A stretch of 24,416 bases of DNA, taken from positions 1 through 24,416 of the IMG/VR virus record IMGVR_UViG_3300029911_000143. One strand, written 5' to 3'. The notes beneath the pieces were generated by a model. That model worked only from the letters and a program-made list of their open reading frames with translations, had not been told where the DNA came from and made no database searches. Of this stretch, positions 79-24,238 are shown piece after piece. Within the stretch, counting starts at the first letter, position 1, and every line of letters starts with the position of its first letter. Position numbers and translations under genes: made by a program. Source of the stretch: a virus.

Positions 79-94
79 GGATCAGCTTCCGTTT
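79..94 (-). promoter_or_regulatory. Start-associated motif, copy 1
   Basis: The minus strand reads AAACGGAAGCTGATCC and then T-ATG. GGAA is 9 nt before the ATG of the left-edge gene. The TGA stop of the 77-residue gene upstream is formed inside the motif (CTGATCC). Confidence 0.7.
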
Positions 95-315
95 CTTGCC
101 TTGCTTCTCAAATACCGCTCGTGCCGTTTCCGCGAAACCTCGCTACTCTGCCGCTCCGCGTAAGCGTGGCTGCAAGGGCGCCAGGTGTCGCCTTCCAGAA
201 TTCGCCCCTCGCGTTCCACGGCATCCATGAACGCCACATACCGCTCGCGCTGCTCATCGGTGAGGCACGTGCCAAGCCCCAACTCCAAGAGGCCAACGCG
301 CGCGGTCGCGGTCAT
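82..315 (-). CDS. Small hypothetical protein (77 aa)
   Basis: The family is not recognised. The product is charged and probably helical, with a central acidic/basic stretch (about residues 19-45, DEQRERYVAFMDAVEREGR) and a basic C-terminus rich in Arg and Lys. It has no signal peptide or membrane segment. The ATG at 315 is supported by a copy of the start-associated motif just before it. The preceding NlpC/P60 gene ends only 14 nt upstream. Being sandwiched between two motif copies suggests an inserted small accessory gene of the tail region. It could be a regulator or a minor virion protein, and the sequence does not decide. Confidence 0.55.
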   Translation of the reverse strand: MTATARVGLLELGLGTCLTDEQRERYVAFMDAVEREGRILEGDTWRPCSHAYAERQSSEVSRKRHERYLRSKARNGS

Positions 316-316
316 C

Positions 317-333
317 GGAACAGTTTCCGTTAT
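317..333 (-). promoter_or_regulatory. Start-associated motif, copy 2
   Basis: The minus strand reads AACGGAAACTGTTCCG directly followed by ATG at 315. CGGAA and TTCCG form a perfect 5-bp inverted repeat around a 4-nt centre. The TAA of the upstream peptidase gene abuts the motif. Confidence 0.7.
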
Positions 334-788
334 TCAAAATAAACCAGGTCGCGGAACCTATACCCGCACACGGCCTGCTCTCGCCAATGACCCGAGAGGG
401 CGTGCTCCACGACCTTCTTGGCGGTTGCGTCGGCGTGGATCACATACGGCACGTCGCCCACGAATTGCGAGACCAGCCCAACGTGAAAGGGATGCGGGCA
501 GGGCTTGAGGTGGAAGAGAACCACGTCGGCGAGCCTCAGTTCGTCCACCGGCACCCGGACACCCTCTTTCGCCAGTGCGCGCTCGAGCGAATCATCGTTA
601 GGAGTGTTGCGGTAATTCAGGTGAAGCACTCGCATCCCGTCCACGGGGTTCCAGCCAGCGTGAAGCGCGGAGACGATCACGAGGCCCGTACAGTCGATGC
701 CCAGGGCCGTTCGCCCCTGGTGCTGCCACGGAGCCCCGAGGAGGTCTCTCGCTTCCTTGACGACGCGGTGGGGGGATTGGATGGGCAT
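330..788 (-). CDS. Tail-tip NlpC/P60-family peptidase (GTA gp14-like)
   Basis: A 152-residue protein with the compact NlpC/P60 cysteine peptidase layout. Cys33 lies in a GIDCTGLV motif preceded by WQHQGR, His102 lies in FHVGLVS, and His118 lies in YVIHAD. Together they form a plausible Cys-His-His catalytic triad. This family cleaves peptidoglycan stem peptides. In phages and gene transfer agents the protein sits at the tail tip and helps the tail cross the cell wall. The ATG overlaps the stop of the DUF2163 gene (TAATG), which indicates translational coupling. The order DUF2460, DUF2163, NlpC/P60 matches genes 12-14 of the Rhodobacter gene transfer agent. The minus-strand frame stays open further upstream, but the start at 788 fits the family length and the overlap. 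Confidence 0.85.
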   Translation of the reverse strand: MPIQSPHRVVKEARDLLGAPWQHQGRTALGIDCTGLVIVSALHAGWNPVDGMRVLHLNYRNTPNDDSLERALAKEGVRVPVDELRLADVVLFHLKPCPHPFHVGLVSQFVGDVPYVIHADATAKKVVEHALSGHWREQAVCGYRFRDLVYFE

Positions 789-1702
789 TAGCCGGAAACC
801 CTCACAACGCCATCGGGCCCAGGAATCGCCGGCTCTCCGGCGAAATACTTCCCGCTGGTAAAACACGCCTGCCAATCCTCGAACGTAACCGGCGGGCCAA
901 TCGTGACCACGCACGCATCCCCGGCCGTCATAGGCGTTGGCGTGCCGGGATCGTCCAGGATAGTCGCGCCCGCCGTTGGGTCCCACTGCTGGATGCCGTA
1001 GGTCCCGGCGTTGGCGCCGCTCGCAAAGGCGACCGTGCCGCCCACGAAGCGCCGCGCCGGAAAACCGGCTGTGGCGGAAAGTGTGATCTGCCGGTTGGGG
1101 TAGGTGCCCACGCTGCTCACTGTGGTGGAGAGTTGCGAGGCTTTGCCGTCCGGCGTGTTGGTGCTGGTGCCCGGCGTGAAGAACGCGAGGGCCGGATGGT
1201 CCCAGGTTCGCGCCCGGCTGATGCCGCTGGTCACGTCGCCCACGTCGAATTGCAGGCCCCATTTGAGGCCCCGGCATTTGAGCGTCGCCTTGGAACCCGC
1301 GTAGGTCGTCTCGCCGATGGTGCCCCGCATGAGTCCGCGGATAACCGTGTTGGTCCGCCAGTCGAACATGAGCAGGGTAAAGGGGGCGCTCTTGAGTTTG
1401 CCGGTCGCGATGTCAAGCGCGGGGAGCCAAGAGCCGAGGGTCAGGTAGGACTCGAAGGTATCAAGGGCTGCGACCTTGAGATTCCATTCAAGGTTTGAGG
1501 TGCGGAGACTGCCGGCGGAGAGGTAGGTCGTGGCCGGAACGTCGATGGAGTTGATTGAGAAATCCGCGAGGTAGGAGTTGCGCCGGATGTTGGTGAAGGC
1601 GTAGACCGTGCCCTGGTTGCCCACAATGCGCAAGGCCAGCGCAAAGGCGGTGCTCTGGCTGGTCAGGAAGGCGAGTTGCGGGGAGGTGAGGGAGGAGGGC
1701 AT
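788..1702 (-). CDS. Tail-tip hub protein, DUF2163-like (GTA gp13-like)
   Basis: A 304-residue protein, typical in length for DUF2163 (BR0599-type) proteins, which form the hub of the tail tip in gene transfer agents and related siphophages. Visible support includes the beta-rich N-terminal half with LMRGTIGETTYAGSKATLKC, the mid-protein LKWGLQFDVGDVTSG, and a C-terminal FEDWQACFTSGKYFAGEPAIPG stretch that resembles the family's C-terminal F..C...F.N...F.GFP.vPG signature. Several of the usual cysteines are absent, so the metal or disulfide features of some relatives may be missing. It starts 7 nt after the preceding stop, with a motif copy just upstream, and overlaps the peptidase gene by 1 nt. 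Gene order strongly supports the role. Confidence 0.75.
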   Translation of the reverse strand: MPSSLTSPQLAFLTSQSTAFALALRIVGNQGTVYAFTNIRRNSYLADFSINSIDVPATTYLSAGSLRTSNLEWNLKVAALDTFESYLTLGSWLPALDIATGKLKSAPFTLLMFDWRTNTVIRGLMRGTIGETTYAGSKATLKCRGLKWGLQFDVGDVTSGISRARTWDHPALAFFTPGTSTNTPDGKASQLSTTVSSVGTYPNRQITLSATAGFPARRFVGGTVAFASGANAGTYGIQQWDPTAGATILDDPGTPTPMTAGDACVVTIGPPVTFEDWQACFTSGKYFAGEPAIPGPDGVVRVSG

Positions 1703-1705
1703 GGC

Positions 1706-1722
1706 GGGTCAGGTTCCGGTTT
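1706..1722 (-). promoter_or_regulatory. Start-associated motif, copy 3
   Basis: The minus strand reads AAACCGGAACCTGACCC and then GCC-ATG, with GGAA 11 nt before the start at 1702. It differs from the consensus at two or three positions. The upstream gene's TGA lies inside the motif, as in copy 1. Confidence 0.55.
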
Positions 1723-2182: not shown

Positions 2183-2186
2183 GGAA

Positions 2187-2753: not shown

Positions 2754-2754
2754 A

Positions 2755-2771
2755 GGGGCAGCTTCCGGTTT
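2755..2771 (-). promoter_or_regulatory. Start-associated motif, copy 4
   Basis: The minus strand reads AAACCGGAAGCTGCCCC and then T-ATG, with GGAA exactly 9 nt from the start at 2753. It fills most of the 23-nt gap after the tape measure stop codon and is the only candidate ribosome binding sequence there. Confidence 0.75.
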
Positions 2772-2776
2772 CTATT

Positions 2777-8683: not shown

Positions 8684-8685
8684 GG

Positions 8686-9560
8686 TTATTTCAGCCTTCG
8701 GTTATTTCCGGGGGCGTCCTTGTGTTTGCGCTCTCGCTCGCGCTTGATTTCCCGGTTTTTGTCCAAAATCGGAGTAGCTTCCGCCTCCGCGTCCAGCCAT
8801 CCAGCCAGCCGGTGGAACAAAGCCGGCCGCTCCTTCAAGAGCCTCTCGCCCGCCTCGTACTCCAGGTAGGCTTTGCCCACACGCTGGATGTTCTTGTCCG
8901 AGATGAACGCCGGTTGCGGGCACGGCCAGAGCGTCTTGGCGGCGCGCTCCAATTCCTTCTCTTTGCGCAAGCCAATGGCGGTCTTGGCCGGGTCCTTTTC
9001 GCCTTCGTGCCCGAGGTAGGCAACTAGCTCCCAGAACGCGGCCGGGTCGCTAAAGGGCCGAACACACCGCGCTCAACAGCTTCGAGAATGCCCTCCAGCA
9101 GGTCAGGAGAGAACGTCAGCAGATTTTCCACGGTCACCGGCCACGGTTCACCCTCATCAGTCAAGTCCCATTTGGCGGTCAGGTGCGCGATGCGTTCAGC
9201 CTGGTTGGCCGCCAGCGCCTTCTCGGCCGCGCGCAACTGCCCCAGGAGGGCCTCAACCTGTTCCGAGAACTCTTTGGTGCGCTTCTCGATTTCGGCCGGC
9301 GTGGGGCCGCGCTGCCGCTTGCCCTGGCCAACTTTCGCGTTGATGATGAGGGCGAAGTAGGAGGTATCGCCGGTGGCCGCGCAAATGCTCTTGAGCTTCA
9401 CGACTTCGCGCTTGAGGTCGCCCTCGGCTTCCACCAGCGGGCGATAGGTGTCGTTCGTGACGGAGATGCGCTCCAGGTAAGCGTCAATCTGGAATTCGAC
9501 GCTCCCGCGCTGGATCTTGATCGGGGTCGTGGCGTTGTGGACTTGCGAGATATCGGGCAT
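8686..9560 (-). CDS. Tail assembly chaperone fusion (GT type) made by -1 frameshift
   Basis: This is the extended product expected if ribosomes slip back one base at CCCTTTA (9057-9051) in the chaperone gene. The -1 frame is closed by a TGA about five codons upstream of the heptamer, then stays open through FSDPAAFWELVAYLGHEGEK and on to a TAA at 8686. The fusion would be 170 residues from frame 0 plus 121 new residues, 291 in total. In lambda and most long-tailed siphophages the rarer GT form bridges tape measure and tube subunits. The T part has no good start of its own: the first candidate is an internal TTG at about 8970 without a clear Shine-Dalgarno. It ends 2 nt before the tape measure ATG. 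Confidence 0.75.
9024..9560 (-). CDS. Tail assembly chaperone (G type)
   Basis: A 178-residue protein located between the tail tube and the tape measure, the usual place for the lambda G-type chaperone that coats the tape measure before the tube polymerises. The N-terminal part is beta-rich (about residues 14-75). It is followed by a long charged helix around residues 88-130 (EIEKRTKEFSEQVEALLGQL, then RAAEKALAANQAERI) and a C-terminal SPDLLEGILEAVERGVFG. The start at 9560 is chosen because AAGGA lies 4 nt upstream and because the upstream frame would run through a terminator-like hairpin. The stop TAG at 9024 is 25 nt after a canonical slippery heptamer, so this is probably the non-frameshifted, abundant form. 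Confidence 0.75.
   Translation of the reverse strand: MPDISQVHNATTPIKIQRGSVEFQIDAYLERISVTNDTYRPLVEAEGDLKREVVKLKSICAATGDTSYFALIINAKVGQGKRQRGPTPAEIEKRTKEFSEQVEALLGQLRAAEKALAANQAERIAHLTAKWDLTDEGEPWPVTVENLLTFSPDLLEGILEAVERGVFGPLATRPRSGS
9051..9057 (-). other. -1 ribosomal slippery heptamer CCCTTTA
   Basis: On the coding strand the frame is GGC CCT TTA GCG, so the heptamer fits X-XXY-YYZ with X=C, Y=T, Z=A. It is inside the only window (about 50 nt) where the chaperone frame and the -1 frame are both open. Confidence 0.75.
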
Positions 9561-9675: not shown

Positions 9676-9692
9676 GGAACAGTTGCCGGTTT
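9676..9692 (-). promoter_or_regulatory. Start-associated motif, divergent copy 5 without a start codon
   Basis: The minus strand reads AAACCGGCAACTGTTCC right after the tail tube stop. The base changes are in GGAAGC (GGCAAC), and no ATG follows at the usual distance. The next gene starts about 115 nt further on, past the hairpin. It may mark a junction where a gene was lost. Confidence 0.5.
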
Positions 9693-10221
9693 ACGACTGA
9701 GCTTCGAAGTAGACCGGGCCGGTGAAGGAGAACGACAGGTCTCCGCCAATCACGGTCGCGGTCGCGATGTCGATGCTCAGGCTCGGGATGGAAAGCGTGC
9801 CGCGAATCTGGAGCTTGCCCGTGGCGTCACCGAAGGGCCGGATCACAATGTCCGCGAAGCCTCGGCCCAGCGTGTGAAGGATGCCGGTGCGGATGCCCTG
9901 CATCCAGATGATGAAGGCGCCGGTCTGGTCTCCGCCGTCGCCGGTGTCGTACTTACAGGTGAGCTTGGCGTCGTTCAGGGCCACGATGTGGCTCTTCCAG
10001 AAGCCGTTGACGTCGGCGCCCAGCTTGGTGACGTCCACTTCGCCCTCGGTCGTGGCGACCTTGGCGTCGTACAGGTAATTGTTGACGTCGCCGGCGATCT
10101 GGTAATCGGTCTTGAACGTGGTGAGCGTCCCGCCGCTCAAGCCGTTGATGCCGGTGAGGGCAGGGGAGGGGACAGCGCCGGTCCCGATGTAGATTCTTGC
10201 GCCAGCTCCAATTTGTGCCAT
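9691..10221 (-). CDS. Major tail tube protein
   Basis: A 176-residue beta-rich protein with the length and position of a siphovirus major tail tube subunit, directly before the G/GT chaperones and tape measure. It begins MAQIGAGARIYIGTGAVPSP. It contains the segment GEVDVTKLGADVNGFWKSHI (about residues 60-79), which aligns with the first domain of the neighbouring 769-residue protein (EEVDHTRLGQIGAPWKSHL). The C-terminus ends in alternating hydrophobic strands (LSIDIATATVIGGDLSFSFT). The Shine-Dalgarno is weak (CGGAG about 12 nt upstream). The protein should polymerise into hexameric rings forming the tail lumen. A terminator-like hairpin follows, which fits a need for high expression. Confidence 0.75.
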   Translation of the reverse strand: MAQIGAGARIYIGTGAVPSPALTGINGLSGGTLTTFKTDYQIAGDVNNYLYDAKVATTEGEVDVTKLGADVNGFWKSHIVALNDAKLTCKYDTGDGGDQTGAFIIWMQGIRTGILHTLGRGFADIVIRPFGDATGKLQIRGTLSIPSLSIDIATATVIGGDLSFSFTGPVYFEAQS

Positions 10222-10278: not shown

Positions 10279-12588
10279 TTACAGCCTTGCGAACGTCACA
10301 TGCGAGATCGCGGTGCCGGTGACGGCCGTTTGATTCACGCGGACATGCGGGTAAATCGTGGTCCCCGGCGGGATATAAATGGAAGCTGTTCCGGGTTGGG
10401 TTGCGGACGGGAAGGTCCCCAGCGCGACGTAGGTGCCGGGGCTGCCGTCCACGTCCGGCGCGTGGTCCACGGCCTGCGTCAGCGAACCTCCGGCGCTCAC
10501 GAAGAGTACCTGCTGTTGGAGCATCGCGCCATTGCTGGTCGTGGTGCTGCTCGGGATATCGGCGAGGTCGGAGCTTGAACCGGTGCCGCTGATGACGTTG
10601 GCATTGGTGTAGGTGTGGCCTTCCACCGCGCTCGCGTCCACGATGCCGGTGGCCACGCTACCGCCCGTGGTCGTGCCAGCCGCCGTGGCTCCGGTCCCGG
10701 TCGCGGCGGCTGGCACGTTGCCGGACGCGGGCGGGAAATAGGCGTTGTAGAGTCCGCTGCCAGCGCTGCCGGCGGCAACGGTGGCGATGGTGGAGTTGGC
10801 GAGGACGGTGCCCTTCGCGGCGGTCTGGGTCAGAACCCCCACGGTTACGGTGGGGCTGACTGCGCCGGCGGCGGTGGGGTAGAGCAGGTTGAGGTTGAGG
10901 GAAGCGCCGGCCGGCGGGGTATATGAACCGGTGTCTCCGGCCCCGCCGATGTCATTGCCTCCGTGGTCCGTCCAATACGCCGCGTTTCCGGTGGGAAAGT
11001 CAGCCGCTGGATTCGGCGTATCGGCGACGGCCGGCGGCAGCGAATAGGCGCGTCCATAGGTGGTCACTGACTCAGCAATGGTGTCTCCCAGCGTGCCGGA
11101 TACCACCCATTGTTCGTCCGGCGGCGACCAATACAGGTAGCCGGCCGGGCCCCACCAGCCACCCATGGAGCCGCCACTTTGAACGAAATAGAACTGTCCG
11201 TTCAGACTGCCGGCGTAGGTAAATGCGTCGTACCCGTGAAACTCGGAGGTCATCACGACCGAGCCGCCGCTGCCCGCCGCGCTCGTACCGGTCACATAAA
11301 CCTCTGCGTCGCTCCCACCCGCCGCGCGCAAATTCGCCTGGATCGTGGAGATCGAATCCCCCGGCGTCACCGTCACACCGTCAATCGAAATCGCCGCGGA
11401 GGCCGTCACGTTGTCGATCACGCCGGTGACCACTTTTAAAAGCGGCGCGGGATACGAACTGAAGGTGAAGGTGATGGTCCCGTTGAGCAAACCGCCGGAA
11501 AGGGTGATGCCTCCGGACGCCGTGACCGTCTGCCCGCTGTAGGCCGCGCACGCCTCAATGGCCGAGATCCAATCCGCGTTGGAAGTCGGGTCCGCAACGT
11601 CGGAGAGGGCCGCGTTGCCGGTGCCCTGAACGGCCGCCCAGACCGGCGACGGGACGTTGGTGAACTCCACAGATTGCTGAGGCGAAACCGGCGCGGCGCT
11701 GGAACCAACGACCGTCGCATTCGCGTAAATCCCGGCGAGAGCCTGCAAGAGCCCCTGCACCGTCGAAGAGGAAGCGCCCAAGGTGAAGTTCCCAGAGCCG
11801 TCAATGGTGTACTCGCCCGCGTCGCCACCGGCGATGGTGAAGGACTGCACCGCGCCGCTCCGGATTTCCGGCGGTTCAATGGGCGTACCAGCCAGTGAGC
11901 CCCCGAAGGAAATGGCGAGACTTCCGGAATACAACACATGCGGGGAAGAACCTGAAGTGCTGAGCGTCCCAGTGACCGTGATCGTACCGCCGAGCAGCGC
12001 CTCCAGAAGCGTCACGAGCGACGAATTCGAGGTCGCAGCCGTGAATGGAGCGGAAACTGCCCCGCCATCCACCACGAAGCAAAACCGCTGATTCGCATCA
12101 ACGCTGGTGTAGACCAGGTTCAATCCAGAGGTGCTGGTCGCACTCCCGTTCCCCACCGGCGTCCACCCAACGCGGCCGCACACCATCCCCGGCGAAGCCG
12201 CCGACGTGATGAAATCCGTGTCGAGCGAAACAATCCCGTTGACGGGAATAGAAATCTCGGCCGGTTTCGTGGCGCGGACGTTGGCGATGATCGAGAGGTA
12301 ATTGAACCCGGCGCCGAAGGGGCAGAGCGCCAGCGTGTGCAGTGTGCGCAGGTTGATGAGGTTCTCGAGGCGGTTGATCGCGTCGATATCCACGCTCGGG
12401 CAGTCGCCGTTCAGGCTCACCTTGCCATCATTCAGCGTCACCAGGTGACTTTTCCACGGCGCGCCGATCTGGCCAAGGCGTGTGTGATCGACTTCCTCCT
12501 GAGAGAAAGTGACCATCGCCTTGGCCTGGTCCTGATGAATAGGAACGCCGTCCAGGTAGATTTGTGCTCCGGCTCCAATTTGCGCCAT
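10279..12588 (-). CDS. Giant tail tube-like protein with a long beta-rich extension
   Basis: A 769-residue protein whose first about 130 residues are related to the major tail tube protein next to it: the same MAQIGAGA start, KSHLVTLNDGKVSL against KSHIVALNDAKLTC, and LHTLALCPFGAGFNYL against LHTLGRGFADIVIRPFG. After this tube domain come about 600 residues that are Gly, Ser, Thr and Ala-rich, almost free of Lys and Cys, and probably a chain of beta domains exposed on the virion surface. Around residues 588-615 the GTVLANSTI and SGLYNAYFP stretches echo GTILAQNSTSGLYNAY in the head decoration protein. TGAGGAATCT precedes the ATG. It could be an alternative tube subunit, a terminal ring or a surface-display protein. 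The order (terminator, this, tube) resembles a duplicated lambda gpV, which also carries an extra surface domain. Confidence 0.65.
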   Translation of the reverse strand: MAQIGAGAQIYLDGVPIHQDQAKAMVTFSQEEVDHTRLGQIGAPWKSHLVTLNDGKVSLNGDCPSVDIDAINRLENLINLRTLHTLALCPFGAGFNYLSIIANVRATKPAEISIPVNGIVSLDTDFITSAASPGMVCGRVGWTPVGNGSATSTSGLNLVYTSVDANQRFCFVVDGGAVSAPFTAATSNSSLVTLLEALLGGTITVTGTLSTSGSSPHVLYSGSLAISFGGSLAGTPIEPPEIRSGAVQSFTIAGGDAGEYTIDGSGNFTLGASSSTVQGLLQALAGIYANATVVGSSAAPVSPQQSVEFTNVPSPVWAAVQGTGNAALSDVADPTSNADWISAIEACAAYSGQTVTASGGITLSGGLLNGTITFTFSSYPAPLLKVVTGVIDNVTASAAISIDGVTVTPGDSISTIQANLRAAGGSDAEVYVTGTSAAGSGGSVVMTSEFHGYDAFTYAGSLNGQFYFVQSGGSMGGWWGPAGYLYWSPPDEQWVVSGTLGDTIAESVTTYGRAYSLPPAVADTPNPAADFPTGNAAYWTDHGGNDIGGAGDTGSYTPPAGASLNLNLLYPTAAGAVSPTVTVGVLTQTAAKGTVLANSTIATVAAGSAGSGLYNAYFPPASGNVPAAATGTGATAAGTTTGGSVATGIVDASAVEGHTYTNANVISGTGSSSDLADIPSSTTTSNGAMLQQQVLFVSAGGSLTQAVDHAPDVDGSPGTYVALGTFPSATQPGTASIYIPPGTTIYPHVRVNQTAVTGTAISHVTFARL

Positions 12589-12598: not shown

Positions 12599-13072
12599 TC
12601 AGACAGTGGAGATCGTGAACAGGAACAGATGGCCGGTGTGCCAACGCTCGTCTTTGTCGATCAACTCATTATACGGACCGATATCGCACATCTCAACAGG
12701 GACGCCGACTTGCCAGCCCACGGGCCCCAGGATGGCCGCGAGAAGCGCCTGCCCCGGCAATCCGCCGCCATTGGTCCAAAGCTGATAATTGGAGTTGGCG
12801 AGGGAGTCCACGACCGCATAGCCGGTCTCGCCGGCCACGTCAGAGGACACGGCTTTCATGCTCACTTGAATCATCCGGCACTCGCCGGCCGCGCCGCCCA
12901 ACTTCTTTTTGGCGCGATTGCTCTTCACGCACAACACAAACGCCGGCATGGGATCCTCAGCCTGAATCGAACCCAGGAAGATCCCGGCCGCTGAAATATC
13001 TTCGCACTCCTCAATGAGCACCGCGCGCAGCGCTGCGAGGAGGTCGCTCGATCCGGTTGAAGTCGTCGCCAT
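12599..13072 (-). CDS. Tail terminator/completion-like protein
   Basis: A 157-residue protein assigned mainly by position between an HK97 gp10-like gene and the tail tube genes, where lambda gpU-type tail terminators lie. The composition is mixed alpha/beta: an N-terminal helix (LLAALRAVLIEECEDI), a central KKKLGGAAGECRMIQVSMKAV segment like a beta strand pair, and a C-terminal HTGHLFLFTISTV strand. The length is in the usual range of 130-160 residues. Its ATG directly follows the TAA of the upstream gene (TAAATG). I do not recognise a diagnostic motif, so a head-tail joining role is also possible. Confidence 0.5.
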   Translation of the reverse strand: MATTSTGSSDLLAALRAVLIEECEDISAAGIFLGSIQAEDPMPAFVLCVKSNRAKKKLGGAAGECRMIQVSMKAVSSDVAGETGYAVVDSLANSNYQLWTNGGGLPGQALLAAILGPVGWQVGVPVEMCDIGPYNELIDKDERWHTGHLFLFTISTV

Positions 13073-14799: not shown

Positions 14800-14810
14800 G
14801 GCGATAAGGG

Positions 14811-14841: not shown

Positions 14842-14862
14842 GATGTGACTCTACCGGTTGGG

Positions 14863-15189: not shown

Positions 15190-15223
15190 AGTTTTGATCC
15201 TTGGGGGTGAGGATGGACGGTTG

Positions 15224-16279
15224 TTACGCCGAAGTGATGGTGACAACCTGGAGGGTCCGCTTCATCACGGCGCCCCCGTTGAAGCCCATGTGAACATCAA
15301 TACGGGGCGGGATCGCGATGCGAACGCCGCCCACCGCGTTCTGGAAGTCGTTGACGAAGGAGTACACGCCCGGGGCCATGCCCGGATTGAGCGCGTTCTT
15401 CGTCATGATGGCCGCGCCCGGCTTCTCGCCGGTGGGGCGAGCGGCCAGAACCTGGACCACGCCATCCGGGAAGTCCAATACCCAAGTGCCGGAAGCATTC
15501 AGGTAGCCCGTCTCCACGATCTTGACCTGCGGGGCACCGGACGCCAGGAGGATTTCGTTGACGTCCTTGAGCGAACGCATGGCGAGTGGCGTGGTGGTGG
15601 GGAAGCGCCCGTAAAGGTCCGCGCTGTTACTGTTGAACCGCAAGTCCTGAAAGGTCTTGGAGCTCATATAAGCCGTGGCGCGACTACCAAAATCGTTGCT
15701 GGTTCCGCGACCGTAATTGATCTGCAGATTCATCAGATCAAGCAGCGGAGTCGCGCTCGCGTGAGTGGTCCATGCGGTGCCCGGCGAAAACGTCTGCTGG
15801 GTGTAGCTGGTGCTGTAGCCCGGCGAACCGTCCGGCAGGTTGATGGTCAGGGTGCCCGTATTGAGCAGCGTGCCCATCATCTGTTTCCAGCGCCAGCGGT
15901 ATTGCACGGCGAGGCGCCCCTGATCGGCGGCCACCAGGTCGTGGACGTTGATATCCACGTTGAGTCCGTCGAAGTTGCCGGTTCCGGTGCGCTCCATGAG
16001 CTCGGTTTCGCCGAGGGTCAGGAAGTTGCCGAAGAACCCGGGGGTGGCCTCATAGCTCTTCTGGCCGATGCGAGACGTGTTGGTCGGCGAACCGCCTTCG
16101 CCGCGCAGGCTCATGATGCCGGTCTGGTTGTCATCCTGAGTCCAGATCAGCCGCGTGCGCTGGATGTTCTCCAGGGGGAAGAAGTCGCTGAGTGCTTCCT
16201 CTTCCAGGAGGTTCGGCACCAGTTCGGCGGCGATCCGCTGGTAAGTGGCTTGGGGTTCGTAGACGTATACGACTGTCAT
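15224..16279 (-). CDS. Major capsid protein, lambda gpE-like
   Basis: A 351-residue protein close in length to lambda gpE (about 340). It follows the protease and decoration genes, as gpE follows C and D in lambda. The N-terminal arm (YEPQATYQRIAAELVPNLLE) is followed by a region of acidic and aromatic residues and the segment LVAADQGRLAVQYRWRWKQM, similar to the long helix region of this family. The C-terminal RIAIPPRIDVHMGFNGGAVM and LQVVTITSA match the family's last strands. The product builds the icosahedral shell. GAGGAAAAACTACC precedes the ATG, and a motif copy lies about 20 nt upstream. A small out-of-frame reading frame ends in an ATGA overlap with this start. Confidence 0.8.
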   Translation of the reverse strand: MTVVYVYEPQATYQRIAAELVPNLLEEEALSDFFPLENIQRTRLIWTQDDNQTGIMSLRGEGGSPTNTSRIGQKSYEATPGFFGNFLTLGETELMERTGTGNFDGLNVDINVHDLVAADQGRLAVQYRWRWKQMMGTLLNTGTLTINLPDGSPGYSTSYTQQTFSPGTAWTTHASATPLLDLMNLQINYGRGTSNDFGSRATAYMSSKTFQDLRFNSNSADLYGRFPTTTPLAMRSLKDVNEILLASGAPQVKIVETGYLNASGTWVLDFPDGVVQVLAARPTGEKPGAAIMTKNALNPGMAPGVYSFVNDFQNAVGGVRIAIPPRIDVHMGFNGGAVMKRTLQVVTITSA

Positions 16280-16476
16280 GGTAGTTTTTCCTCAGAGTCA
16301 AACGGAACAGCTTCCGGTTTGCGGCCGGAGTTACGGGATGAGAACGATTTGCGTGGATCCGGAACTGATGAACCGGACTCCGGGGATGAGGCCCTGCAGA
16401 ATCGCGGCGGCGCCGGCCTGCAAGTCGCTGATGTTGAAATAGCCGCGGTGGTAGCACTGCAACGTCGGCTTGGCAT
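16276..16476 (-). CDS. Possible nested out-of-frame small ORF (66 aa) coupled to the capsid start
   Basis: This reading frame lies in a different frame inside the end of the decoration gene and through the intergenic gap. It is listed only because its ATG is preceded by AAACCGGAATCTATTCC with GGAA exactly 9 nt upstream, as at four ordinary genes, and because its TGA overlaps the major capsid ATG (ATGA). The encoded peptide (MPSRRCSATTAAIST...) is Ser/Pro/Arg-rich and looks like a shadow of the main frame. If translated, it could act mainly by coupling ribosomes onto the capsid gene. Its last part is encoded by another motif copy. Confidence 0.2.
   Translation of the reverse strand: MPSRRCSATTAAISTSATCRPAPPRFCRASSPESGSSVPDPRKSFSSRNSGRKPEAVPFDSEEKLP
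16300..16320 (-). promoter_or_regulatory. Start-associated motif, copy 6
   Basis: The plus strand AAACGGAA-CAGC-TTCCGGTTT is the most symmetric copy and could form a hairpin of about 8 bp with a 4-nt loop. It lies after the decoration stop and 20 nt before the capsid ATG, which has its own GAGGAA ribosome binding site. Confidence 0.7.
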
Positions 16477-17083
16477 CGGAATAGATTCCGGTTTCGTTCA
16501 CGTTCTGACCGATGAACACATTGCCGCTCGCATCCGTGGAGAAATCGAACATGGCAATCGCGACGCCGGAAACGGCTTTGTTGTAAATCGGCTCCCGCTG
16601 GCCACCGTAAACCGGTGCCGTGATGCTGTGCGCCGCGCCGGTCCAACCGGAGAAAACCTGGTGGAAGATTCCGCCGGCCGGGTCCGTGATGTAGATGTTG
16701 GCGGAAGCTGCACCGGCCGGGAGGGGCGTGATCGCTGTGATCGCGATATGATTGGTGGAACCCACGGTCACCGAGGCCGGCGTATTGATCGTGGTCTCAT
16801 TGCCGGCGGCATCGACCAGCGTGTAGGCCACCTGGTAAACGCCGGTGGGCAGCGTGCCGTCGCTGCCGGTCGGGGTGAGCGTCAGCGCCGTGGTGGGCGC
16901 CGCGAGCACGGCGGACGCATAGGCGTTGTAGAGCCCCGAAGTGGAGTTCTGCGCGAGGATGGTTCCCCGCGCGGTCTGGGAAATGCTCGCGGCCAGCGCC
17001 ACGGCGATGGTGCGCGCATCGTCCGGATAAAGTGCCGGCTCGATCTTGCTGGGGTTTTGTGCTTGGAGTAGACGCTGGGCCAT
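16331..17083 (-). CDS. Head decoration protein, lambda gpD-like, with an Ig-like insertion
   Basis: A 250-residue protein, about twice lambda gpD (110). The two ends look like a gpD-type decoration fold: TARGTILAQNSTSGLYNAYA (about 37-56), and then KAVSGVAIAMFDF (169-181) and LQCYHRGYFNISDLQAGAAA (208-227), comparable to lambda AVGILAVAAD and YKSGTFRYEDV. Between them, about residues 64-160, lies a Thr/Val-rich stretch with GVYQVAYTLVDAAGNETTI and TPASVTV, the pattern of an immunoglobulin-like or fibronectin-like domain. It would trimerise on the capsid shell and display the extra domain outward. GGAGGG lies 6 nt before the ATG. The position between protease and capsid matches lambda C-D-E. 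The insertion boundaries are estimates. Confidence 0.65.
   Translation of the reverse strand: MAQRLLQAQNPSKIEPALYPDDARTIAVALAASISQTARGTILAQNSTSGLYNAYASAVLAAPTTALTLTPTGSDGTLPTGVYQVAYTLVDAAGNETTINTPASVTVGSTNHIAITAITPLPAGAASANIYITDPAGGIFHQVFSGWTGAAHSITAPVYGGQREPIYNKAVSGVAIAMFDFSTDASGNVFIGQNVNETGIYSDAKPTLQCYHRGYFNISDLQAGAAAILQGLIPGVRFISSGSTQIVLIP
16478..16494 (-). promoter_or_regulatory. Start-associated motif, intragenic copy
   Basis: The minus strand reads AAACCGGAATCTATTCC and then G-ATG. It is inside the decoration coding sequence, where it also encodes part of NETGIYSDA, and differs from the 24.2-kb copy at only two positions. Confidence 0.45.
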
Positions 17084-17090
17084 GGTATTC

Positions 17091-17132: not shown

Positions 17133-17136
17133 TTGA

Positions 17137-18543: not shown

Positions 18544-18550
18544 AAGTTCC

Positions 18551-18901
18551 TCAAAGGTTCAAAACCGATTGGGTGATTTGCCACTTCACGACGGGAGCGA
18601 GCTCGAGGTCTTCAATCTCGGCCCAGGTCTTCCGCGGAAAAAAGATCAGGTCGCAGGGCACATGAACCTCGAAGCCGTGCTTCCGGCGAATCAAAAAGAT
18701 CGGGGTCAGGGCGTCCCGGTGCTCTTCGTCAAGCAGGCGATACGCGAGGTCAACGCACGCCCTTTTGTCGGGAAGAATTTCGATGGCGTACTGAGAAACC
18801 CATCCGTCGTCGCCCTCTTCCATGTCCGGGATGCGCTTCGCCTCTTGCTCGGCCGGGAGTGATGCACAAGGCGGGAACTGCGCGAAGAAATCAAATTTCA
18901 T
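18551..18901 (-). CDS. Hypothetical protein between portal and protease (116 aa)
   Basis: The family is not recognised. It starts in an ATGA overlap with the portal stop, with GAGGTGGAAGC just upstream, so it is translationally coupled to the portal. Acidic overall, with an N-terminal FDFFAQFPPCASLP and a central DLAYRLLDEEHRDALTPIFLI (about 50-70), then a beta-rich HVPCDLIFFPRKTW. No signal peptide. Small genes at this place in Mu-like head modules may encode minor head or morphogenesis proteins, but this one gives no decisive motif. Confidence 0.6.
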   Translation of the reverse strand: MKFDFFAQFPPCASLPAEQEAKRIPDMEEGDDGWVSQYAIEILPDKRACVDLAYRLLDEEHRDALTPIFLIRRKHGFEVHVPCDLIFFPRKTWAEIEDLELAPVVKWQITQSVLNL

Positions 18902-20661
18902 GCTTCCACCTCGTTAACCGGAACAGCTTCCGTTTGGCGCGAAAATCCGGCTCCGTCGCGCCCCATAACCTTTTTGGAGACCCGTTCGCCCGCGTTGCGG
19001 CCAATGCGATTTTTAACGTCCTGATCCAGCCCCCCGCCGGCGCCTCCGGGCTGCGATCCGTCACCCGCGGGGTCAGGGGTGCCCGTCGCCACCAGGAGCG
19101 CCTTTTCAGCCTTGATGTCTTCCATCCATTGGCGAATATCGCACTCCGGCAGCCCGAGGTAATTCTGCAGCTCCGGCAACATGGAGTAATGGCCGCCGCC
19201 GTTCGCCATGAACTGGCCGATGCCCACCAGCAGCGGCACAAGGTCGTCGTTGTCGATCTTGCCCAGGTCCGGCTCAGGGATGTACTTGCGGAACTCGGGG
19301 CCGAAGTTGAGCTCCACCAGCGGGGCCAGAATGTCGTATTTGACCATCCGGCAGATTTTTTCCTTGAGGTAGTGGACCGGCGTATTGAGCACGTTTTCAT
19401 GCACCGTGCCGGCCGCCTTGGCTTGGTGCGGAGACGCGGAGGTCGCCAACTTCTGGAACGTGATTCCCTTGATAATCGCGGCGTCGTGTTGCTCGATGGA
19501 GCCGGCGAGGTAGCCGCCATCATTCACGTTTTGAGAAAGCGTGATTATGGTTCCAGCGGGCGCCGCGACGGCATTTCCGGCCTGCATGAACTGAAGTACC
19601 TGAAGGAGGGCTTGCGAAGCCGTGATCTTGGGCGCGCTCGTGTTGACGGTGCCGTCCGGATTGAAAGGGTATTGATCCGGCGCGGTCGGCGAAGCAATGC
19701 CGATGGGGATGGGCAGGCCAAACCGGCGACCGTAAAGGTTCGCCTGTTCCAGCCGGTGCATTTTCAAATACCACTGGTTGTAAATCGACCGCCACCAGCT
19801 GCGCCCGCGGGGATCGGCGAATTCGTCCAGCAGGGTAAGCACGGCAAACTTTTCGCGGGAGACGAAATTCCAGATGGCCGGGATCGGCATAATCGGCGGC
19901 GTGGTGGCCATCTTCGGCTTGCCCGCGCCGGGATCCACAATCTGCTTGGCCGGCGCATTGAGGAGCGTCTCCGTGGTGACCAGCGTGTTTTTGCCGTCCG
20001 TCGATTCCACCAGGCGCGTGAGCTCGGCGAGCCATTGCTCGTAGGGCCCCGTGTAAACCGCGAAGCCCAGGAAGTTGAAAAACACGTCCACCACGAAAAA
20101 TGTGTTGTGGCGGCTCTTGGGCTTGATTTTGGCGAAGTAATACCGGTTCGCGTCCTCGCCGGTCCCGCGCTCGTAGGTGATTTCCGCCATGTTGTTGCCG
20201 AACCGCATGGCCGCCCACAACATTTGCGCGAGTACGTCATCAATCGTGGTGTGCCGCTTGCCCAGATTGTCCAGCGCGCGCCGGCAGAAATCACGGACCT
20301 GGATTCCGTTGTCAAAATCGTCCGGGTCTCTCTCTGGATCCGCATAGGCGGGCCGCAGCGTCAACTTCCGGCGCAGCGTCATCATGACCAGCGTCATCGT
20401 TGAAGAGAAAATCTGCTCATCCGCCGCCATGCGCCCGTAGACGTCGTTGCCAATCAGGTTGTCAAGGTCGTCGTCGGGCGTGGGGAGTTGCGCCAGCCAC
20501 ATCCACGTGGGGACGCTGAAGCCGCCGGAGACATATTCAAGCCGGGGGTCGGTCTGCTGGACATTTATCCCCTGCGCGCCCGCCGTCTGGACCAGGGAAT
20601 TTACCGTCGCGTCTCTGTCCGGAATGCTGACGGGTGTGGGTGCGCTTTTGGGGAGAGCCAT
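18898..20661 (-). CDS. Portal protein, DUF935/Mu gp29-like
   Basis: A protein of about 587 residues. Features of the DUF935 (Mu gp29) portal family are LTLRPAYADPERDPDDFDNG near residue 105, the NRYYFAKIKPKSRHNTFFVV segment (about 172-190), and SREKFAVLTLLDEFADPRGR followed by SWWRSIYNQWYLK (about 268-305), the usual KF...DP.G.G..r..y..w.lK signature. RFGLPIPIGIASP and a helical C-terminal region with LEDQDV-type charged helices follow. The product forms the dodecameric ring through which DNA is packaged. The ATG at 20661 is preferred over an in-frame GTG one codon earlier. GGGG lies 4 nt upstream. It ends in an ATGA overlap with the next gene, and a motif copy is embedded in its last codons. 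Confidence 0.8.
   Translation of the reverse strand: MALPKSAPTPVSIPDRDATVNSLVQTAGAQGINVQQTDPRLEYVSGGFSVPTWMWLAQLPTPDDDLDNLIGNDVYGRMAADEQIFSSTMTLVMMTLRRKLTLRPAYADPERDPDDFDNGIQVRDFCRRALDNLGKRHTTIDDVLAQMLWAAMRFGNNMAEITYERGTGEDANRYYFAKIKPKSRHNTFFVVDVFFNFLGFAVYTGPYEQWLAELTRLVESTDGKNTLVTTETLLNAPAKQIVDPGAGKPKMATTPPIMPIPAIWNFVSREKFAVLTLLDEFADPRGRSWWRSIYNQWYLKMHRLEQANLYGRRFGLPIPIGIASPTAPDQYPFNPDGTVNTSAPKITASQALLQVLQFMQAGNAVAAPAGTIITLSQNVNDGGYLAGSIEQHDAAIIKGITFQKLATSASPHQAKAAGTVHENVLNTPVHYLKEKICRMVKYDILAPLVELNFGPEFRKYIPEPDLGKIDNDDLVPLLVGIGQFMANGGGHYSMLPELQNYLGLPECDIRQWMEDIKAEKALLVATGTPDPAGDGSQPGGAGGGLDQDVKNRIGRNAGERVSKKVMGRDGAGFSRQTEAVPVNEVEA
18916..18935 (-). promoter_or_regulatory. Start-associated motif, copy 7
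   Basis: The minus strand reads AAACGGAAGCTGTTCCGGTT inside the last codons of the portal gene, where it encodes TEAVPV, 14 nt before the ATG at 18901. That gene also has a separate GAGG ribosome binding site. Confidence 0.7.
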
Positions 20662-20669
20662 CACGCCCC

Positions 20670-20698
20670 ATTGTACGGGCGCGAATTTTCACAATCAA
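20670..20698 (-). promoter_or_regulatory. Sigma-70-type promoter candidate before the portal gene
   Basis: The minus strand has TTGATT, exactly 17 nt, TACAAT, a good match to the vegetative consensus. It spans the stop of the sigma factor gene and the 33-nt gap. Initiation about 7 nt past TACAAT would place the transcript start within a few bases of the portal ATG, so the transcript would be leaderless or nearly so. Confidence 0.45.
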
Positions 20699-21384
20699 CA
20701 ATCGCGGGGGTCGGAGAGCATCGACTTGAGTAGCGCGGCGCCCTGGTTGCGGATCACGCGGACCCGTTCGTCCGAGACGCCCATAATCGCGCCGACTTCG
20801 ACCAGGGTGCGTGTTTTTCCATCGCTCAGGCCGTACAGAAGCGTGATGACCTTCGCCTCGGCCGGGCGTAATTTCGCCACGGCCGCCCGGATTTCCACCG
20901 CGGTCGTGGCGGAATCCACGCGCCTTTCAGCCAAATCATGGACTGCTGGGCCAGTGTCCGGCACGGACTCAGCCATCTCTTCGTAATCATCAATTTCCGA
21001 TGGATCACGAAGAAAGGACGGCCTCCACATTGTCGAACACGGATCCAGGCGCTCACAGTCCACCGCGAGATAGACGTACTTCCAAATCCATCTGGTCGCG
21101 TAAGTGGAGAATTTAAACCCGCGCTTCGGGTCGTAGAGTCGCATCGCGTCGTAGAGTCCGAAAGTTCCCTCCTGCACAAGGTCCCGGAACTCCACGCACG
21201 CCCGGTCGGACGCGGGAAGCGAGCGATACCGGTTTGAAACCACGTAGTAGACGAGCCGGATATTCCCTTCCACGATCCTCTGCCCGGCCGCGACATCGCC
21301 CGCGCGATACCGCTCCAGCGAGTACAAGAACGTCGCTTGGTCCATGGCCGGCGGCAGGTTGTTTGGGTCAAGAGGTATGGACAT
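20695..21384 (-). CDS. Phage-encoded sigma-70 family factor
   Basis: A 229-residue protein with two recognisable sigma parts. Region 2 (about 30-108) has GNIRLVYYVVSNRYRS, EFRDLVQEGTFGLYDAMRLY and DPKRGFKFSTYATRWIWKYV, with the aromatic-rich 2.3/2.4 helix that melts and reads the -10 element. Region 4 (about 165-222) has LRPAEAKVITLLYGL and then the helix-turn-helix TLVEVGAIMGVSDERVRVIR that reads the -35. The linker (110-160) is acidic and has no clear region 3; region 1 is minimal. It should bind host RNA polymerase core and redirect transcription. It lies between large terminase and portal, an unusual place. Its own start has a motif copy with GGAA 9 nt upstream. It could activate late phage genes or alter host transcription. 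Confidence 0.85.
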   Translation of the reverse strand: MSIPLDPNNLPPAMDQATFLYSLERYRAGDVAAGQRIVEGNIRLVYYVVSNRYRSLPASDRACVEFRDLVQEGTFGLYDAMRLYDPKRGFKFSTYATRWIWKYVYLAVDCERLDPCSTMWRPSFLRDPSEIDDYEEMAESVPDTGPAVHDLAERRVDSATTAVEIRAAVAKLRPAEAKVITLLYGLSDGKTRTLVEVGAIMGVSDERVRVIRNQGAALLKSMLSDPRDC

Positions 21385-21385
21385 C

Positions 21386-21402
21386 GGGGCAGCTTCCGGT
21401 TT
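21386..21402 (-). promoter_or_regulatory. Start-associated motif, copy 8
   Basis: The minus strand reads AAACCGGAAGCTGCCCC and then G-ATG of the sigma gene. The TAA of large terminase directly abuts it, so the motif fills the whole gap. It is identical over 17 nt to copy 4, almost 19 kb away. Confidence 0.75.
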
Positions 21403-22949
21403 TAGCGGAGAAAGCGGTCTCCTCGGTTCACCTGGTCCAACCTGAACCCGCCATCTCTCATCTGCCCGAGCCCCATACCGGCGGCCAAGACTCCCATGGG
21501 GGCGCCTATCGCGGGTGCATCGTGCTGCCTCGGCGGTGCGGTGCCGGCCTCGCTTGCGTCTCTCGCAAGAAATGCCTCGGTGCCGAAGTATCGGAGGGCG
21601 GCCATGTAGTGCCGCTTCTTCTCATCCACGGGCTTTTCACCCTGCATCACTTCGCCCGTGTTCTTGTCGGTGGGCCGCGAGAACGTCCCGAAGTCGTCAA
21701 TAACTTCGGCGCAAGCCGCGCGGTCCACACGGAGGAGCCCGCGCATCATGGCGGAGTTAACCGCGTTGACCTGGCCCCAAAAGTCCTTGATCGCGGGCGG
21801 CGTAGATCGGAGTCCGCCGCGTAGCAACTCCATGCGCCATCTTTCCTCGGAAATCTGGCCCACCGCACACCAAATCAGGTTCGGCCACCTGCGTACAATG
21901 TCCTCGCCGCGCCATTCCATGCTGTGCTCGCGGTCACAGTAGAGATCCGTGATCGTCCAAATCTGGGTCACCGGATCCATCGCGCCCGAAAGGCCGTAGA
22001 AATTCACGTCGCCCGGGTCGAACGCCGCCGCCCGAGGGTAATACGGCGGTGTCGCGATGCCCTCCACTTCGAACTGTGGATCCCATTGGTCGAAAATCAA
22101 GCCGGCCGGCCGCGTGAAAATACCCCTGTAGCGCTGATCGAACAGCCATTTCGGCAGCGATCGACGCGCGATTTCAAATTCTTCCGGCGGAAAGGCGGGA
22201 TTTCGCGTCGAATCGAAGCGCACGAAGTGCATTTGCGGATGCACGGTACCCAGGTGCATTCGCGTGGCGAAATTTCGGTAATCGCGCTTCTTGACGTCCT
22301 CGGCCGCGGCCCGCCACTGTTTGTAGAAGTCGTACATCCACCCAAGGCCGTAGACGATACTCCCAAAGCACAGCCGCCCCATTTTCAGGTGATTTGGGCG
22401 CCCAACCTTGTTGTTGTACGGGGCAACTTGGCCCCTCGCAATGGAAAGCCGTCCGCGCATTTCCAGGAGCGACGACCGGCGGAAGGCATCTTGCCCGGTT
22501 TCGTCGCCCACGGCCGCAAGGGCGGTGTAGCCGGCGAAGCTGTCCGAGTCCGACGCGAAGCAAAAGTTGATCGATGTCTTCTCTTTTTGCTCGTGGCCCC
22601 ACAGTGCCTGTTCGCCCAAGGGCGTGAAGGTGAGGCTCATTTTTGGCTGGGAGGTGAATTTCGCCCAGCCCGACAGCCCTTCGAAGATGCGACGGAAGCC
22701 TGGCACCAGCTTATTGCGCAAAATCGTGAGCTCGGGGCCTATCGCGAGGTAGCAAATCTCCGGATTGCCCGGACCGCACCGGATCATTTCTTCTATCAAC
22801 CAGTGCGCTAATAGCGAAGTTTTCCCGCTCTGCAGGCCGGCGGAGATGTAGGTCTCCGTGGCCAAGGAATCCATGGCGAGGGCCTGGCCCGGGTGAAGAG
22901 CGACCTCCATCCGGCCATTCGCGCCCATCCGCATCAATTCTTGGGCCAT
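21402..22949 (-). CDS. Terminase large subunit
   Basis: A 515-residue DNA packaging motor. Walker A is AGLQSGKTS (residues 37-45). Walker B is probably ALAAVGDE (143-150, Asp149/Glu150). The nuclease part begins at AAAFDPGDVNF (Asp311) and includes TITDLYCDREHS (333-343) and the C-terminal DEKKRHYMAALRYF, in place of the usual D/H-x-x-DALRY. The start at 22949 is chosen because it lies 5 nt after the stop of the small terminase and leads into the ATPase domain. The open frame continues upstream but only as overlap with that gene. The last about 40 residues are Gly/Met-rich and probably flexible. It cuts concatemers and drives DNA through the portal. Confidence 0.85.
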   Translation of the reverse strand: MAQELMRMGANGRMEVALHPGQALAMDSLATETYISAGLQSGKTSLLAHWLIEEMIRCGPGNPEICYLAIGPELTILRNKLVPGFRRIFEGLSGWAKFTSQPKMSLTFTPLGEQALWGHEQKEKTSINFCFASDSDSFAGYTALAAVGDETGQDAFRRSSLLEMRGRLSIARGQVAPYNNKVGRPNHLKMGRLCFGSIVYGLGWMYDFYKQWRAAAEDVKKRDYRNFATRMHLGTVHPQMHFVRFDSTRNPAFPPEEFEIARRSLPKWLFDQRYRGIFTRPAGLIFDQWDPQFEVEGIATPPYYPRAAAFDPGDVNFYGLSGAMDPVTQIWTITDLYCDREHSMEWRGEDIVRRWPNLIWCAVGQISEERWRMELLRGGLRSTPPAIKDFWGQVNAVNSAMMRGLLRVDRAACAEVIDDFGTFSRPTDKNTGEVMQGEKPVDEKKRHYMAALRYFGTEAFLARDASEAGTAPPRQHDAPAIGAPMGVLAAGMGLGQMRDGGFRLDQVNRGDRFLR

Positions 22950-22954
22950 GGAGA

Positions 22955-23761
22955 TTAATCTTCGGGGAAATCGGGCTCGGTCTGGGCTTCGATGATATCG
23001 CCTTCGAATTCGGCCAGTGTGTCCGCGAGGTAATCCGCCACCTGGGCCTCGGAGGGACGTTTGATTTCGAAAATGTTGGCGGTGAACTGCGCGCCGGCAA
23101 ATTGGCCGGTGAACTTGGTTTGCATCCCGAGAGCCGTATAGCCGTGGGTGATCAGGTCGGTGAGGGCGTTCGTCTCGGCTTTGTGCGAGGAGGCGGACTT
23201 GTTGATCGTCGCGACTTCTCCGGACGCGCTTTGTTTCTGCTCGGTCTCGTTTCGAAGTCGCTTGCGCGTAAGGTCGATGGCCTCCGTGATCGATTCGAGC
23301 GCCATCTCGCGGAAGTTCTGGCGCATCGAGGCAACCAGTTCGTCCGCCTTGTTTCCCCCCTGGAGCACTGGCAGCGAGTCCAGTCGCCTTTGCCGGAATT
23401 CCTCCCAACGGCCGGCGTCTTTCCAGCGCATGAGCGTGCTGGCGTTGACCTCCCAGAGCGCGGCGAGCGCGGAATCCGGCAGGTCTCCCGGGCCCTCGAT
23501 GTAATGCGCGCGGATCGATTCGTACCCGTAGCGAACGATGTTGTCTTTCTCGCTCCCGGATCGGCAATAGCCGTTGGCTATGAGCGTGGGGTGAAGGAAT
23601 TCAGCGGATCCGCACGGCTTGGTGACGGCGAGCTGCACGCCCACCTTTTCAAGTTCGCGAGCATCACGCAACTTCTTGCGCTCCGCCACCAATTCGTCAA
23701 CATCCGCCGGGCCTGGCTTATTGGCCTCGCGCCGCGCTCGCTTGAGGGGAGATCCAGCCAT
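22955..23761 (-). CDS. Terminase small subunit-like DNA-binding protein
   Basis: A 268-residue protein directly before large terminase. The start at 23761 begins MAGSPLKRARREANK, a basic N-terminal tail, and lies 5 nt after the preceding stop. A helix-turn-helix (DSALAALWEVNASTLMRWKD, about 96-115) resembles the terminase small-subunit DNA-binding module. The middle (about 150-210) is a long charged helix, and the C-terminus is acidic (EAQVADYLADTLAEFEGDII). It should recognise the packaging site and load the motor. It is longer than many small subunits (140-190). The family is inferred from HTH plus position. Confidence 0.65.
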   Translation of the reverse strand: MAGSPLKRARREANKPGPADVDELVAERKKLRDARELEKVGVQLAVTKPCGSAEFLHPTLIANGYCRSGSEKDNIVRYGYESIRAHYIEGPGDLPDSALAALWEVNASTLMRWKDAGRWEEFRQRRLDSLPVLQGGNKADELVASMRQNFREMALESITEAIDLTRKRLRNETEQKQSASGEVATINKSASSHKAETNALTDLITHGYTALGMQTKFTGQFAGAQFTANIFEIKRPSEAQVADYLADTLAEFEGDIIEAQTEPDFPED

Positions 23762-23766
23762 CGGAG

Positions 23767-24195
23767 TTACTCGCTCCCGTGGTTCGCGTAAGCGCCGTTG
23801 ACGACTTCCGGTCGCGCCTCGGCATATTTCTTCGCCTGGGCCCAAACCTTTTTGCGCGCGCCTTCGCTCATGCGCTTGACCTTGGCCAGCGCTTCGGTGC
23901 GGGAATCAGCGGTCGCACCCACGAATTTCTTGCGGAGTTTCTTCGCGAGTTCTCGCACCGCGGTGGCCTCACGCTTTTGCTCTTTGGTGAGCTCGCGGGG
24001 CTTGTCCGGGATCAGCTTGCGCCGAACCGGGTAAAGCACTGCGCCGACGACTTCGCGAATGCGCTCTTCGCTCCAGCCGGGATGATTGCGGCGTAGGTTG
24101 CCCATCACGCCGCGCGTCTCCGCGTCATCGCGGTTGGCGAAATGTACCTCGCGGGAATTCGCCGGAAGGGGGATTTCTGTCGGGTTCGATTTCAT
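23767..24195 (-). CDS. Basic hypothetical protein (142 aa) at the head of the structural operon
   Basis: The start is taken as the ATG at 24195. Strongly basic helical protein: KPRELTKEQKREATAVRELA and KKLRKKFVGATADSRTEALA (about 65-103), then KVKRMSEGARKKVWAQAKKYAEAR. No membrane segment or clear HTH is seen. It could bind DNA or RNA and might help the terminase, but no family was recognised. A TATAAT hexamer lies 7 nt before the ATG and there is no Shine-Dalgarno, so the mRNA may be leaderless. The next gene begins 5 nt after its stop. Confidence 0.55.
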   Translation of the reverse strand: MKSNPTEIPLPANSREVHFANRDDAETRGVMGNLRRNHPGWSEERIREVVGAVLYPVRRKLIPDKPRELTKEQKREATAVRELAKKLRKKFVGATADSRTEALAKVKRMSEGARKKVWAQAKKYAEARPEVVNGAYANHGSE

Positions 24196-24202
24196 GGAAG
24201 GA

Positions 24203-24208
24203 ATTATA
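24203..24208 (-). promoter_or_regulatory. TATAAT -10 box 7 nt before the first gene's ATG
   Basis: A perfect TATAAT on the minus strand. No TTGACA-like hexamer is found at 16-18 nt; instead GGAAGC of motif copy 9 occupies the -35 position. Transcription would begin at or next to the ATG. Confidence 0.45.
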
Positions 24209-24220
24209 TCAAACCAAAGA

Positions 24221-24238
24221 GGAATAGCTTCCGTTTTT
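24221..24238 (-). promoter_or_regulatory. Start-associated motif, copy 9
   Basis: The minus strand reads AAAAACGGAAGCTATTCC, 25 nt before the ATG at 24195 and 12 nt before TATAAT. This is the only copy next to a clear -10 box, so here it may be a -35-like element or operator. Confidence 0.65.

Follow-up and report, generated by a model that had tools for sequence, protein, structure and literature searches.

Start-associated sequences (SAS) of cluster K mycobacteriophages are asymmetric 13-bp repeats with the consensus GGGATAGGAGCCC, which occur in 11-19 copies per genome, virtually all of them a few nucleotides from a start codon (PMC3203893). The stoperators of L5 and the cluster A phages are dispersed over short intergenic gaps, oriented with transcription and also found at a promoter (PMC9283540). 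ParB-family proteins bind short inverted repeats, which can be scattered genome-wide, as in RK2 and N15 (PMC5016525), and KorB silences promoters near and far via such inverted-repeat sites (PMC11790492). Here we describe a recurrent 17-base motif in the viral contig IMGVR_UViG_3300029911_000143, which was analysed over its whole length of 24,416 bases (the window). In layout the motif appears most like SAS and stoperators, in ancestry closest to palindromes in a distant relative (termed G002), and neither its sequence nor its placement would make it an SAS.

We read the motif as a dispersed DNA operator for a phage-encoded protein, either a clamp of the ParB/KorB type or a comparable silencer in the style of stoperators, and give this reading a probability of roughly one half.

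A 17-base repeat at late gene junctions

All genes of the window lie on the minus strand, and terminase, portal and tape measure are recognised among them (PHROG); judged from its gene content, the window is the late module of a tailed phage. With up to three mismatches the 17-mer, which has the consensus AA[AC]CGGAAGCTG[TC][TC]CC, occurs 11 times, versus 0.08 copies expected from dinucleotide shuffles. Leave-one-out (LOO) scoring with a position weight matrix assigns 20-28 bits to the junction copies; shuffled sequences give about 0.6 matches of at least 13 bits per window. Nine of the 11 copies are placed at gene junctions, and nearly half of the junctions in the phage carry the repeat. Counted strictly, eight copies fall into junctions, which make up 5.7% of the window (p = 1.5e-8); this count omits the copy at 79, which stands at the start of a gene that the window end cuts, and becomes nine when that copy is included. 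A near-identical contig of the same species (G001; 29,943 bases, 99.8% identical) adds approximately 4.7 kb of early region, which runs on the opposite strand and encodes a DnaB-type helicase. It holds one further, intragenic copy (L010:1718, 23.4 bits), oriented with the opposite transcription of that region. Accordingly, the strong copies number 12 in the window and G001, and 11 of them point in the direction of transcription, the arrangement typical of stoperators. Across the 12, the third A of AAAC, the GG, the second A of GGAA, the CT and the CC are invariant.

Five strong copies lie within 3 nt of a real gene start. GAAACGGAAGCTGATCC (79-95, minus strand as all copies below unless stated otherwise; LOO 21.3 bits) is separated by one base from the ATG at 77, and ATAACGGAAACTGTTCC (317-333; 22.2 bits), in which the NlpC/P60 gene has its stop codon, stands likewise before the ATG at 315. 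AAACCGGAAGCTGCCCC is present twice (23.7 bits each), at 2755-2771, one base before the ATG at 2753, and at 21386-21402, where it overlaps the terminase stop and precedes the sigma-factor ATG at 21384 by one base. The fifth, AAACCGGAACCTGACCC (1706-1722; 20.0 bits), overlaps the stop of gene 1709-2182 and is followed, after three bases, by the baseplate hub ATG at 1702. At the starts 77, 315, 2753 and 21384, GGAA is exactly 9 nt upstream of the ATG, and apart from the GGA of the motif nothing there resembles a Shine-Dalgarno sequence (-3.5 kcal/mol; most other genes reach about -5 to -10).

The remaining strong copies are 18-115 nt away from a start or intragenic. AAACCGGCAACTGTTCC (9676-9692; 21.1 bits) overlaps the stop of gene 9691-10221, some 115 nt before the next start, and the exact consensus copy CAAACCGGAAGCTGTTCCGTTTG (16304-16320), which belongs to the palindromic class, stands between the decoration gene and that of the major capsid protein, whose ATG follows 24 nt later and has its own GAGGA. 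The palindromic copy CAAACGGAAGCTGTTCCGGTT (18920-18936) occupies the last portal codons, 18 nt before the ATG of gene 18551-18901. The first late gene, which starts at 24195, has a TATAAT promoter whose -35 region is covered by AAAACGGAAGCTATTCC (24221-24237). Within genes are found AAACCGGAATCTATTCC (16478-16494), in the gene of the decoration protein, where an out-of-frame ATG (16476) follows after one base, and the reversed copy TAAATGGAAGCTGTTCC (10376-10392, plus strand) inside gene 10279-12588.

A preliminary description made from the letters of the window had named the nine junction copies on the minus strand, and all of them stand, although two of its positions (16300 and 18916) were off by four and are in register at 16304 and 18920. 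Its observation on GGAA at four starts without another ribosome-binding site was equally accurate. A tenth, degenerate copy proposed before the tape measure (about 8686-8705) reaches -1.3 bits, a score that chance alone would match in 60 positions. The common orientation it reported holds for the nine junction copies and for 16478; the oppositely directed copy at 10376 had escaped it. The restriction to junctions likewise fits the nine, and is broken by the overlooked copy at 16478, by 10376 and by the copy in G001.

About half of the copies are inverted repeats (317, 16304, 16478, 18920 and 24221), so that the same description was right in part when it called many of them imperfectly palindromic. 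Imperfect palindromes lie away from starts at 16304, 18920, 24221 and also 16478, e.g., CAAACCGGAA-GCTG-TTCCGTTTG. Start-adjacent copies mostly retain AAACCGGAAGCTG and have a broken right arm (CCCC, ATCC or ACCC); 317 retains it. The two classes lead us to infer that the palindromic form is original and that the start-adjacent form is a half-site tuned to double as a ribosome-binding site. An operator in the form of an RNA hairpin was also considered and rejected: since most start-adjacent copies have lost the right arm, stems are absent or broken at 79, 1706, 2755 and 21386, and no stem is conserved.

Apart from single chance matches, the 17-mer is missing from the searchable genomes and viruses. 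An exact search with AAACCGGAAGCTGTTCC returned 62 viral and 73 genome stretches with a single match each, and a scan of these stretches for second copies yielded only weak or isolated extra matches; the outside matches look like chance. The ATG-linked forms of the motif gave two and zero matches elsewhere, and the two matching loci were without further junction copies.

Palindromes at orthologous sites in a probable phage-plasmid relative

G002 (58,695 bases) is distant from the window phage and syntenic with it, its structural proteins being 43-57% identical (terminase 57%, portal 50%, capsid 43%). The 17-mer was not found in G002, and in this sense junctions of a relative do lack the motif, which the preliminary description had named as grounds for giving it up; yet a diverged counterpart is present. 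An unbiased count of repeated words in G002 yielded TTGCGAAGCTGCTTCG, and the underlying sites are palindromes of the form AGACATTRCGAAGC-W-GCTTCGYAATGTCT. GCGAAGC-A-GCTTCGC recurs in exactly five copies, all with the central base A in the direction of transcription. They score 37-50 bits, and the next best place reaches 11 bits, as shuffled sequence does. One copy lies upstream of the TATAAT box of the first late gene (43128), one in the portal tail (48101), one directly before the tape-measure ATG (57937), one between two genes (14500) and one inside a ParB gene (24562).

Motif and palindrome probably descend from one site, as the portal tail most strongly suggests. A protein alignment made blind to the site places GAGFSRQTEA opposite GAEFSSKSEA, in a tail that is otherwise poorly alignable. 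At the DNA level the window and G002 face each other there without a gap and codon for codon, GGAGCCGGATTTTCGCGCCAAACGGAAGCTGTTCCG against GGAGCCGAATTTTCGAGTAAAAGCGAAGCAGCTTCG, with the shared bases GGAGCCGGATTTTCG..AAA..GAAGC, and the window copy at 18920 thus occupies the position orthologous to the G002 palindrome. The placement at the late promoter is also common to both phages, the site being just upstream of the TATAAT box of the first late gene (24221 in the window, 43128 in G002). Precisely at the junction ahead of the tape measure, a full palindrome stands in G002 and at most a remnant in the window. Elsewhere, the G002 palindrome gave six single chance matches, and these were without ParB helix-turn-helix domains. 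The sites are best read as fast-evolving operators across the lineage.

G002 encodes ParA, ParB (362 aa) and a second ParB-like protein (635 aa), the latter two with ParB_N and HTH_ParB domains. It further harbours a RepA-like initiator, seven copies of the iteron TTCCCCCAGATACCGCGTTT (five near-exact) and a tyrosine integrase (L014:9892-13134 and L014:13560-14555). Because of this set of ParA and ParB-type proteins, an initiator with iterons and an integrase, G002 is probably a phage-plasmid. The palindromes and the ParA/ParB proteins of G002 provide repeats of the SAS kind, which were described in 2011 and whose function is unproven, with an ancestry and a candidate binding protein.

Proposed dispersed operators and rival explanations

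As a dispersed operator, the motif would be bound by its protein while the phage stays quiescent, probably as an extrachromosomal genome. The protein would cover the -35 region at 24221 and block the late promoter, and bound copies along the late operon would serve as obstacles or loading sites that hinder elongation, thus silencing the late genes. Alternatively or additionally, the sites may be used for partition of the resting genome. At four or five junctions the half-site GGAA, positioned at Shine-Dalgarno distance, would also act as ribosome-binding site, and this double use would account for the start-adjacent copies keeping the left half and the centre and mostly losing the right arm. 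That the copies are oriented with transcription speaks for an effect on RNA polymerase, similar to that of stoperators, rather than for a purely symmetric partition site. A regulator-binding site in DNA was one of three options in the preliminary description, and owing to the diverged palindromes at orthologous sites in syntenic G002 it is the best supported of them.

The KorB operator OB of RK2 and the scattered centromere sites of the phage-plasmid N15 (PMC11790492, PMC5016525) resemble the window sites in being short, scattered repeats, inverted in about half of the window copies, with a site near a promoter, and the relative G002 is a probable phage-plasmid with ParA/ParB. Its site core AAGC-A-GCTT resembles the centre of the KorB OB, TTTTAGCGGCTAAAA (PMC11790492), in the common AGC-N-GCT, which is a lead only. 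Unlike these, the window copies have a direction, are degenerate and outnumber them, and they are fused with ribosome-binding sites; the available part of the window phage yielded no ParB, and no sites next to parB were seen in G002. A bolder version, in which loading sites of a ParB-type clamp multiplied across the late operon of a phage-plasmid lineage and merged with ribosome-binding sites, such that one short sequence, which diverges along with its protein, serves partition or silencing as DNA and translation initiation as mRNA, is conceivable but rather doubtful. Were the operator reading with its candidate protein confirmed, it would illustrate a way for phages to spread an operator through an operon, namely fusion of its copies with ribosome-binding sites, as well as the joint drift of operator and protein.

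Several observations weigh against an operator of this type. The 29.9 kb of the incomplete genome G001 contain no ParB_N domain, and no repressor gene was identified in the available part of the window phage genome. None of the five strong G002 palindromes adjoins the parAB genes. The likeness of the G002 core to the KorB OB is so short a match that it could be coincidence. A pure dimeric palindrome leaves the co-orientation and the invariant CT centre unexplained, the right arms are broken in most start-adjacent copies, and the spacing is unlike, GGAA-N4-TTCC in the window versus CGAA-N5-TTCG in G002. The binding protein can only be inferred because the genome of the window phage is incomplete; the missing part may hold it.

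The motif could instead be a translation-initiation element like the SAS of cluster K, recognised in the mRNA by the ribosome or by a phage RNA-binding protein, and GGAAGCTG[A/T]TCC would then pair, bulged and extended, with the 3' tail of 16S rRNA. The fixed spacing GGAA-N9-ATG, seen at four genes and once more at the out-of-frame ATG (16476), speaks for this, as do the lack of a better Shine-Dalgarno sequence at those starts, the co-orientation with transcription and the pairing of copy 79 with the 16S tail (-12.7 kcal/mol), a single strong case. The likeness to SAS (PMC3203893) extends to an asymmetric repeat of comparable abundance (17 bp and 12 copies in 30 kb here), a place a few bases before ATG, a single orientation with one reversed copy, an upstream stop codon that sometimes lies inside the repeat, a Shine-Dalgarno-like core and absence from unrelated phages and host genomes. 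However, the motif does not match the SAS consensus, it resides in a structural late operon rather than in the non-structural half of the genome, only five of 12 copies take the Shine-Dalgarno position before a real gene, several are intragenic, and a relative has a palindromic counterpart. Moreover, several copies precede, by 18-115 nt, starts that possess a Shine-Dalgarno sequence of their own, most copies pair only moderately with the 16S tail (-6 to -9), pairing with rRNA leaves the conserved AAACC flank and the CT centre unexplained, and the G002 counterpart is at the Shine-Dalgarno position in none of five sites. As the primary function of the motif, translation initiation is unlikely. 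Since the spacing of GGAA to ATG is fixed, a second role of the left half as ribosome-binding site at four or five genes is plausible. The landing site envisaged in the preliminary description survives to that extent, and fails for the distant and intragenic copies, the flank and the centre.

We consider it similarly improbable that the copies are true stoperators, i.e., asymmetric sites of an immunity repressor of the cI/L5 type, which halt elongation in the lysogen and require no ParB. The pattern is that of L5 (PMC9283540), with dispersed copies that lie in short gaps and overlap stop and start codons, one orientation and one site at a promoter. Yet the sequence differs (the preliminary description had rightly called the motif unrelated to both SAS and stoperators), no such repressor was identified in the available part of G001 or in G002, and the strong copy at 10376 is reversed. 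Stoperators are asymmetric, whereas the sites are near-palindromic in part of the window copies and nearly perfect palindromes in G002, and the binding protein of the window phage is a postulate.

The readings as a promoter, as an RNA hairpin and as a recombination seam are not supported. A promoter element for the sigma factor that the phage encodes (20695-21384, minus strand; Pfam Sigma70_r2 3e-12 and Sigma70_r4 3e-9, regions 2 and 4; PHROG 351), the start of which adjoins a copy, would draw on the copy over the -35 region at 24221. GGAA also resembles -35 elements of the ECF type. The other copies have no conserved -10 element at a fixed distance downstream, those next to starts leave no space for a -10 element and a leader, and G002 has a sigma factor, too, yet only five palindromes, all of which renders this explanation very improbable. 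A recombination seam, the third option of the preliminary description, or small mobile repeat at module borders, finally, would agree with copies at gene borders and with the accessory genes 1709-2182 and 18551-18901 near copies, which have no counterpart in G002, but is hardly credible, as G002 has collinear orthologues of most neighbours (terminase-sigma, portal, decoration-capsid, 9691-gpG, TMP-2187), and as copies inside conserved genes and the fixed ATG spacing remain unexplained.

Further features of the window and its relatives

The portal gene (18898-20664, minus strand; PHROG 113), in whose tail codons a site is located, and the major capsid protein gene (15224-16279, minus strand), which has no Pfam match and was assigned by gene order and synteny with G002, complete the genes referred to above. 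The baseplate hub and, weakly, NlpC/P60 have Pfam matches. Searches of viral contigs with capsid, terminase and portal returned as closer relatives only G001, G002 and a distant 12-kb contig (L017), in which the motif was not found. Terminase relatives were absent from genome contigs and from phages; the portal had only weak matches in phages and none in plasmids. Scans of the window for Rfam families (above gathering score) and tRNAs gave no match.

At 24195-24215, 7 nt separate the end of the TATAAT box from the ATG with which the first late gene begins; there is no Shine-Dalgarno sequence, and the mRNA would be almost leaderless. TATAATCAGTCAAG is present exactly four times in G002, at 28634(+), 40564(+), 40666(-) and 43155(+), only one of which has a palindrome upstream, and apparently represents a shared promoter -10 element plus start region. 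A promoter-like TTGAGA-17-TATAAT (11/12) lies on the coding strand at 12668-12696, inside gene 12599-13072. The out-of-frame ATG behind the copy at 16478 opens an ORF of 66 codons (16276-16476), which terminates at the capsid start in an ATGA overlap and is probably no gene, though it repeats the arrangement of motif, one base and ATG.

Two overlapping ORFs ahead of the tape measure (8686-9560) resemble a gpG/gpGT pair of tail chaperones, which are normally joined by ribosomal frameshift. In G002, a prokaryotic E2 family D protein (L014:15384-16151) is encoded beside a gene that, by its sequence, appears to be of the ThiF type (E1); the pair would form a ubiquitin-like conjugation set in a phage.

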